A stretch of 64,000 nt of DNA from Acidobacteriota bacterium (lineage in GTDB: Bacteria > Acidobacteriota > Vicinamibacteria > Vicinamibacterales > CAVVIG01), in NCBI GenBank assembly GCA_003222395.1, contig QHWB01000031.1, forward strand, positions 312,501 to 376,500, given 5' to 3'. The notes beneath the pieces are model-generated. The model saw only the letters and a program-made list of their open reading frames with translations. It ran no database searches and was not told the DNA's origin. The translations under genes and the position numbers were made by a program. Positions 7,294 to 9,241 of the stretch are shown here, piece by piece (position 1 is the stretch's first letter; each line of letters starts with the position of its first letter).

Positions 7294-7722
7294 TTACTTC
7301 TGCGACGTGCCCCTGCTCTTCGTGACAGGATTGCCCGCGTTCACCCACTCATTCCATCCGCCGAGGAGGGCGCGCACGTTCTTCACGCCGCGCTGCTGCA
7401 GCATGAGCGCCGCACGGGCGCTCGTGAACTCGTCGCGTCAGGCACAGTAGGTGACGATCGGCTTCCGGCTCTTCTGGATCATCTGCGCGACCTTCTCGTA
7501 CTCAGCCGGCCACGTCATCAATCCTTCGAGCGGCAGCAGCACCGCGCCCGGGATGTGCGAGATCTCGTATGCGTCGACGTTGCGCGTGTCGACGATGAGC
7601 ACGTTGTTCGACGCGACGAGCTTCTTGAAGTCCTGCTGGGTGATACGGGGCGCGTCGACCTGCGCGGACGCGGCGGGCGCGAGCAGCAGCAGAGCGGCGA
7701 GGGACAAGCATGCGTGTTTCAT
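7294..7722 (-). CDS. Exported rhodanese-like selenoprotein (UGA read as selenocysteine)
   Basis: Reading from ATG 7722, a signal peptide (MKHACLSLAALLLLAPAASA) is followed by a single rhodanese domain: VLIVDTRNVDAYEISHIPGA, then PIVTYCA, then an in-frame TGA at 7440-7438 (codon 95), then RDEFTSARAALML, NVRALLGGWNEW and a TAA stop at 7296-7294, for 142 residues. Rhodaneses of this type commonly read Y-C-A-C-x-[DE]-x-x-[TS]-A-R at this place, so UGA occupies the second-cysteine position two residues after the catalytic Cys93. Everything after the TGA is intact rhodanese C-terminus. A hairpin fitting a bacterial SECIS lies 15 nt after the UGA. Stopping at the TGA would remove the last helix and strand. 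Rhodanese-related selenoproteins are known from marine metagenomes. Divergent from an FAD oxidase. A sequencing error turning TGC/TGT to TGA is the main alternative. Confidence 0.82.
7405..7423 (-). promoter_or_regulatory. Candidate bacterial SECIS element in the rhodanese gene
   Basis: Counting U of UGA as 1, nucleotides 18-36 form a perfect 7-bp stem, GAGCGCC-CGTGC-GGCGCTC, with a five-base apical loop holding G26-U27. In the known formate dehydrogenase fdhF element the loop GU is at 23-24, so position and loop content agree with what SelB recognises. Confidence 0.72.
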
Positions 7723-7747: not shown

Positions 7748-9241
7748 TTGTTGATTCGGCGCGATCCGGACGTGCTCTCTGCGTTTCTCGAGGACGCGGC
7801 CCACTTTCCAGGCGGGCACGCGGCGGGAATCGCCTCGCCGTCGAGTGAATCGGAGGTCGCCGACGTTCTGCGATCGGCGAGCGCGGTGCTGCCAATCGGC
7901 GCGCAATCGTCGCTCACCGGCGGCGCGACGCCGATGGGCGAGGTGCTGCTCGGCACCTCGCGGCTCAATCGCATCCTCGAAATCGGATCGGATTGGGCGC
8001 GCGTGCAGGCGGGCGTGACGCTCGCGGATCTCGATGCGGCGCTCCGGGCGGTAGGCAAGTACTATCCGCCTGCGCCGACGTTCACCGGCGCGTTCGTCGG
8101 CGGCACGGTGGCCACCAACGCAGCCGGCGCCGCCACCTTCAAGTACGGCACGACGCGCGACTGGGTGCGTGCGATGACCGTCGTGCTCGCCAGCGGCGAC
8201 GCGCGTCGGATCGAACGCGGCGGCGTGAAGGCCTCCAGCCTGGTGCCGGTGCCCACCTACCGGATGCCGGCAGTGCCGAAGAATTCGGCCGGTTATTTCG
8301 CGGCGGCCGGCATGGACCTCATCGATCTCTTCATCGGATCGGAAGGAACGCTCGGCGTCATCACCGAGGTCACGCTGCGCGTTCTGCCTCGGCGTCCCGC
8401 GTTATGCCATGCGTTCGTGACGTTCGCCGATCGATCGGCGGCGCTCGCGTTCGTGGCAGGCCTGCGTCGCGCGTCGCACGCCGTCGCCGTCTCCGCGATC
8501 GAGCACATGGACGCGCGCTGTCTCTCCATCCTTCGAGAAGACGGCGTCGATCGTCAGCTCGGCGTGCCGATTCCGGACGATTCGGCGATCGCGCTGCTCG
8601 TCACGCTCGAGCTCCCTGCGGGCACGGACGCCGAGCAGGCGTTCGACGAGATCGGCCGTGCGCATGACGGGTCGCCGCCCGATACGCCGCTCGTCCGCCT
8701 GTGCCGGATGCTCGACGAGGCGGGCGTGCTCGAGCGCGTGGAAATTGCGGTGCCCGGCGATTCCGCCCGCGCGGAGCAGCTGCTGGCGGTCCGCGAGGCG
8801 GTGCCGGCGTCGGTCAACGCGCGCGTCGGCCGCGCGAAGCACGCCATCGATCCGCTCATCGCGAAGACCGCGGCCGATATGGTCGTTCCCTTCGATCGGG
8901 TCGGCGATCTGATGACGATGTACGACGAGGAGTTCGCGAGGCGTCGACTCGACGCAGCCGTGTGGGGACACATTTCGGACGGGAATCTTCACCCGAACGT
9001 TTTGCCGCGATCGTACTCGGACGTCGAATCGGGCAAGGACGCCATCATGACGTTCGGCCGCGCGGTCATTGCCATGGGTGGATCGCCTTTGGCCGAGCAC
9101 GGCGTCGGCCGGAATCCGGTGAAGCAGGCGTTGCTTGGCGAGCTCTACGGCGACCGCGGCGTGGCCGAGATGCGAGCCGTAAAAGAAACGTTGGATCCGG
9201 ACTACAAGCTCGCGCCTGGTGTCCTCTTTCCACGGCGATGA
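7748..9241 (+). CDS. FAD-linked oxidase (glycolate/D-lactate dehydrogenase GlcD type)
   Basis: A 497-residue flavoprotein. The N-terminal half is an FAD-binding PCMH domain with LPIGAQSSLTGGATP (pyrophosphate loop) and GAFVGGTVATNAAGA, then GSEGTLGVITEVTLR; the C-terminal half is the FAD-oxidase C domain ending in WGHISDGNLHPNVLP (substrate/metal histidines) and AEHGVGRNP. These blocks are those of GlcD and D-lactate dehydrogenases, which oxidise 2-hydroxy acids. The start is TTG 7748 with no ATG near. There is no signal peptide or iron-sulfur partner next to it. The exact hydroxy acid is not evident. Confidence 0.88.
   Translation: MLIRRDPDVLSAFLEDAAHFPGGHAAGIASPSSESEVADVLRSASAVLPIGAQSSLTGGATPMGEVLLGTSRLNRILEIGSDWARVQAGVTLADLDAALRAVGKYYPPAPTFTGAFVGGTVATNAAGAATFKYGTTRDWVRAMTVVLASGDARRIERGGVKASSLVPVPTYRMPAVPKNSAGYFAAAGMDLIDLFIGSEGTLGVITEVTLRVLPRRPALCHAFVTFADRSAALAFVAGLRRASHAVAVSAIEHMDARCLSILREDGVDRQLGVPIPDDSAIALLVTLELPAGTDAEQAFDEIGRAHDGSPPDTPLVRLCRMLDEAGVLERVEIAVPGDSARAEQLLAVREAVPASVNARVGRAKHAIDPLIAKTAADMVVPFDRVGDLMTMYDEEFARRRLDAAVWGHISDGNLHPNVLPRSYSDVESGKDAIMTFGRAVIAMGGSPLAEHGVGRNPVKQALLGELYGDRGVAEMRAVKETLDPDYKLAPGVLFPRR

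Follow-up and report, generated by a model that had tools for sequence, protein, structure and literature searches.

The window, the 64,000-nucleotide stretch of acidobacterial DNA analysed here, carries on its minus strand (7294-7722) a rhodanese gene with an in-frame UGA at 7440-7438. From sequence comparison, this UGA is almost certainly decoded as selenocysteine (Sec), and the gene product is very probably a Sec-decoded selenoprotein of the rhodanese fold. The UGA is read in this way because the source genome contains the sel machinery, the site is occupied in relatives by TGA or Cys codons only, the silent sites of a downstream hairpin are frozen, and the part of the gene beyond the UGA is under selection and is predicted to fold. 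The CxU rhodanese is a selenoprotein type that has been predicted before, and the window gene is not new in kind.

The rhodanese gene and its neighbour

The coding sequence encodes 142 residues, from an ATG at 7722-7720 to a TAA at 7296-7294. With TGA translated as U, the product reads MKHACLSLAALLLLAPAASAQ...KPIVTYCAURDEFTSARAALML...KNVRALLGGWNEW..., and the single in-frame TGA is codon 95, two residues past the presumed catalytic, sulfane-carrying Cys93 (codon 7446-7444). An earlier note on this DNA had described a UGA at this distance from the catalytic Cys of a rhodanese, in a frame closing on TAA, and gave no strand; both features were found on the minus strand. The UGA falls inside the match to PF00581, which covers residues 28-128 (69.3 bits against a cut-off of 22.2, E 4e-19). 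The N-terminal segment MKHACLSLAALLLLAPAASA (7722-7663, minus strand) was recognised by eye as a probable signal peptide, and by this hydrophobic leader the rhodanese is probably exported. The homologues also begin with hydrophobic leaders, which are dissimilar in sequence.

In an alignment of 18 sequences the invariant positions include Asp45, Arg47, Cys93, residue 95 (entered as Cys), Glu98 and the GG..W region, and the rhodanese signature D-x-R ... HIPGA ... GGW is invariant or nearly so. The AlphaFold model, predicted with Cys substituted for Sec, is a rhodanese with a mean pLDDT of 88.5. Its fold is unbroken through residue 95, and a block with a pLDDT of 93-97 extends over residues 91-130. 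Searched against the PDB, the model matched rhodanese-domain proteins best (E about 1e-7). None of the solved structures searched showed a C-x-C or C-x-U rhodanese loop, in which a further Cys or Sec would stand at +2. The usual rhodanese loop is CRxGxRS, and the loop between Cys93 and the following helix (Ser101) appears to be approximately two residues longer. A rhodanese paralogue in the same genome (C14:72682) was considered as a Cys backup copy and rejected, its loop being YDSDPNE, which is without a catalytic Cys.

Divergent from the rhodanese gene, at 7748-9241 on the plus strand, lies a gene for an FAD-linked oxidase (FAD_binding_4 and FAD-oxidase_C in Pfam), for which the NCBIfam assignment is GlcD-like, below the cut-off. 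According to ORF lists inspected by eye, the same divergent pairing with a Sec rhodanese is present in the window and at six of 12 other loci (L073-L077 and L083), which belong to several families of the order. This adjacency may reflect a shared function, or shared regulation alone.

Decoding of the UGA

The source genome encodes selA (542 bits), selB (313.8 bits, cut-off 242) and selD (344 bits), the last with one in-frame TGA of its own, together with a tRNA-Sec with the anticodon TCA. The sel genes that the earlier note had proposed to look for in the same genome are thus all present. A second tRNA-Sec-like match (C34) was rejected as a tRNA-Ser with the anticodon TGA.

The order was surveyed across 162 genomes, in which 42 homologues with a YCxx motif were read in register. 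At the position of residue 95, 26 of these carry TGA (in 25 genomes, one of which has two), nine TGT and seven TGC, and no other codon was found among the 42. This agrees with the expectation in the earlier note that relatives would have either Cys or Sec here. Since the loci were picked by similarity to the window protein, the 26:16 ratio of Sec to Cys does not represent a natural frequency. Within the family, all seven homologues besides the window gene have TGA at the identical codon. Further sequences from the phylum add 12 TGA and two TGC, after exclusion of a different rhodanese (L096, G113), and the homologue in a Blastocatellia MAG is the Cys form. None of the homologues read was without the conserved second half, and a frame that simply ends at the UGA, as the earlier note had considered, was not encountered among the relatives.

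Of the 25 genomes with TGA, 23 yielded a selB match, and the other two (G022 and G102) are 85% and 82% complete. Among the 16 genomes with the Cys form, selB was detected in 14. Replacement of Sec by Cys is therefore not simply a consequence of machinery loss, and the persistence of the Cys form beside SelB implies that Sec is of use without being indispensable. On a maximum-likelihood tree built from 56 proteins, four changes between Sec and Cys are required, versus 15.5 with shuffled labels.

Several arrangements of these genes were observed in passing. A homologue in a Desulfobacterales MAG (L072, 5230-5565) contains two in-frame TGA codons and the loop YUAU, in which the presumed catalytic Cys would also be Sec. 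In one genome (L107, G200) a Sec copy (YCAU) and a Cys copy (YCAC) of the rhodanese are adjacent, and in another (L114, G306) two TGA-bearing rhodanese genes stand in tandem, with hairpins that differ from each other and are both well paired.

Two other explanations of the UGA were considered, and each is very improbable. It could be decoded by a system other than that for Sec, through reassignment of UGA or through programmed readthrough that inserts a different amino acid; readthrough, too, can involve an in-frame TGA followed by a hairpin. Against this, the genome has a complete Sec system including tRNA-Sec, at this site homologues have Cys, the residue with which Sec usually alternates, and several homologues appear to end their frames in TGA, which indicates that TGA still stops translation. 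That the UGA is a real stop, or else a recent nonsense mutation or a sequencing error, with the downstream half of the rhodanese in decay, accords with the normal role of TGA and with closure of the frame there under table 11, but it is contradicted by the identical TGA in 26 order-level and 12 phylum-level genes, by a site codon that is always TGA, TGC or TGT, and by purifying selection that is similar on both sides of the UGA (pN/pS 0.50 before and 0.42 after).

The hairpin downstream of the UGA

The decoding of UGA as Sec is also favoured by the sequence that follows it. The hairpin GAGCGCC-CGUGC-GGCGCUC, with a 7-bp stem, lies at 7423-7405 on the minus strand, and its first base is the 15th nucleotide past the UGA, where the earlier note had placed it. 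Bacterial SECIS elements have been described as commonly sharing a small apical loop that contains a guanosine (PMC1088965); the window hairpin is located just downstream of the UGA and has G at the second position of its small loop. The hairpin is more than a chance pairing, because relatives retain TGA at the same codon (26 of 42 at order level and 12 at phylum level).

Thermodynamic stability was of limited use in this regard. The 29-nt hairpin piece has a folding energy of -13.9 kcal/mol (z = -2.4 versus shuffles), and the 48-nt piece from the UGA onwards has a stability that is ordinary for its composition (z = -0.15). The folding energy of the 48-nt piece was accordingly rejected as proof of a SECIS, since a piece that is no better than its shuffles means that folding energy alone proves little.

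Codon usage across the hairpin was compared with scripts that count codons from the Tyr codon without allowing gaps. There are no gaps in the hairpin columns, and distant positions in the order-wide set may fall out of register where lengths differ. Reading from +5 to +10, the codons of the 26 TGA genes are ACG in 25, AGC in 25, GCC in 26, CGT in 23 of 24 with Arg, GCG in 26 and GCG in 26. Mean synonymous codon identity in the TGA genes is 0.96 over these codons versus 0.58 elsewhere in the same genes, and the TGY genes give 0.39 and 0.54 respectively. The contrast anticipated in the earlier note, a SECIS conserved with TGA and not with TGY, is therefore seen in the silent sites. Among seven members of the family, no silent change occurs at codons +4 to +11 (pS 0.000), and pS rises to 0.438 directly afterwards.

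Base pairing is conserved as well. A set of 41 TGA sequences was examined, among them one from Desulfobacterales and two from VTT-fused relatives. All 41 form the four inner stem pairs, with a C-G to U-A exchange in four, and the second loop position is always G. Compensatory changes in the stem are seen across the phylum. None of the 500 shuffles and none of the slid controls reaches the observed covariation score, with changes on both sides of the stem in only nine cells. A covariance model matched the window hairpin with 61.8 bits, the window being part of its training set. When this SECIS model was run on the source genome for other selenoproteins, only the window gene stood out (all remaining matches E >= 0.37), so that any other selenoproteins of this genome must use unlike hairpins. 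An Rfam scan of the window gave no matches.

Proposed function and relation to known rhodaneses

SelB carrying Sec-tRNA-Sec very probably binds the SECIS hairpin, and the ribosome thereby inserts Sec at the UGA, to give a full-length rhodanese with the active-site loop Cys93-Ala-Sec95. This decoding is strongly, if indirectly, supported by the comparisons above, and the chemistry that follows is a proposal. After export to the envelope, a sulfane sulfur would be loaded onto Cys93 to form a persulfide. Sec95, more nucleophilic than the Cys of the sister proteins, would then attack this persulfide, so that sulfide is released or handed on and a Cys-Sec selenenylsulfide is left, to be reduced by an exported thiol-redox partner. 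Whether the Cys93-Sec95 pair in fact performs such chemistry, as a fast persulfide/polysulfide reductase or a sulfur carrier of the cell envelope, is an evenly balanced proposition on the sequence features described. A parallel for such a working mode may be found in the rhodanese-like domain of ThiI, in which a second cysteine resolves the rhodanese persulfide to a disulfide (PMC4041423). In ThiI, however, the resolving Cys is in another domain, the process is cytoplasmic tRNA thiolation and there is no Sec.

A somewhat unlikely alternative is that Sec95 is present and the protein acts mainly as a scavenger of peroxides or electrophiles, or binds a metal or metalloid, with the rhodanese fold merely presenting the Cys-Sec pair. 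According to one review (PMC9312934), almost every selenoprotein whose function is known serves in antioxidant defence, which would suit such a role. The seemingly extended loop after Cys93, as judged from the alignment against general knowledge of rhodaneses, points the same way. The near-invariance of Cys93 and of the rhodanese signature argues against this alternative.

The earlier note had regarded a location outside the cytoplasm as unusual for a selenoprotein of this fold; an exported rhodanese is not exceptional, nor is the CxU type new. In two reviews, the CxU rhodanese is a predicted selenoprotein family, named 'rhodanese-like domain-containing protein form 3' (PMC13188914) or 'COG0607 form 2' (PMC9312934), and one of them ties it to NCBIfam NF041203 (rhodanese_LYCAU). 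The E. coli rhodanese PspE is periplasmic (PMC2593051). NF041203 is also the best NCBIfam match of the window protein, which resembles it in having a single rhodanese domain, a similar length and Sec two residues past Cys (YCAU); the YCAU/YCAC active-site motif of that family occurs in the window protein and its homologues. The match scores 85 bits, short of the curated cut-off of 115, which no genome among the 162 of the order passes. For these reasons the window lineage is, by sequence, a diverged branch of the CxU rhodaneses that would function as the known type does and is not formally assignable to NF041203.

Other known rhodaneses are more distant. PspE is an exported single-domain rhodanese with persulfide chemistry (PMC2593051), two properties that the window protein would share, but PspE is without Sec, and the NCBIfam PspE model gives the window protein 14 bits against a cut-off of 102. 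TsoB (NF045694), a rhodanese/DsbD fusion selenoprotein of the UxxxxU type, likewise has a rhodanese domain with Sec. It differs in Sec positions and domain make-up, and the window protein scores 42 bits against its cut-off of 805.

Further Sec rhodaneses were noticed in the course of the survey. Four genomes of the order contain a rhodanese with an in-frame TGA at YCG[GS][PF]TU, five residues past the catalytic Cys (L134, L135, L136 and L137 in G012, G020, G014 and G056), to which an ion-channel domain is joined (PF07885, as tested for the protein from G012). Five more matches in the phylum (L144-L148) each contain one TGA. The CxxxxU form does not appear among the rhodanese forms in the consulted passages of a review table. 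The window's type of hairpin, in the form GAGCGCCAGUYUGGCGC, also accompanies a VTT/DedA-type membrane protein joined to a rhodanese with YCTU (L035, L045 and L139, in G019 and G006); two of these VTT-rhodanese genes, and one more match that holds a single TGA, are present in G006. YCSU rhodaneses with a similar downstream hairpin and a different N-terminal part (L140 and L141 in G160 and G161) occur in another family of the order.

A broader interpretation, which is rather doubtful, would make the window protein a member of a phylum-wide envelope Cys-x-Sec persulfide/polysulfide reductase and one of several placements of Sec in the rhodanese loop, within a selenium-dependent sulfane-sulfur system not yet described. 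The placements would then comprise, just as tentatively, CxU alone, CxU with the VTT membrane domain and CxxxxU with the ion channel.

A thinly described selenoprotein type is now extended to a large bacterial order and to its phylum. These rhodanese genes would be halved by gene callers for which TGA is a stop. The Sec and Cys versions form a natural experiment, in which SelB is nearly always kept, with a frozen SECIS in the Sec group and none in the Cys group. The contribution of Sec beside a sulfane-carrying cysteine is thus directly testable through these two groups.
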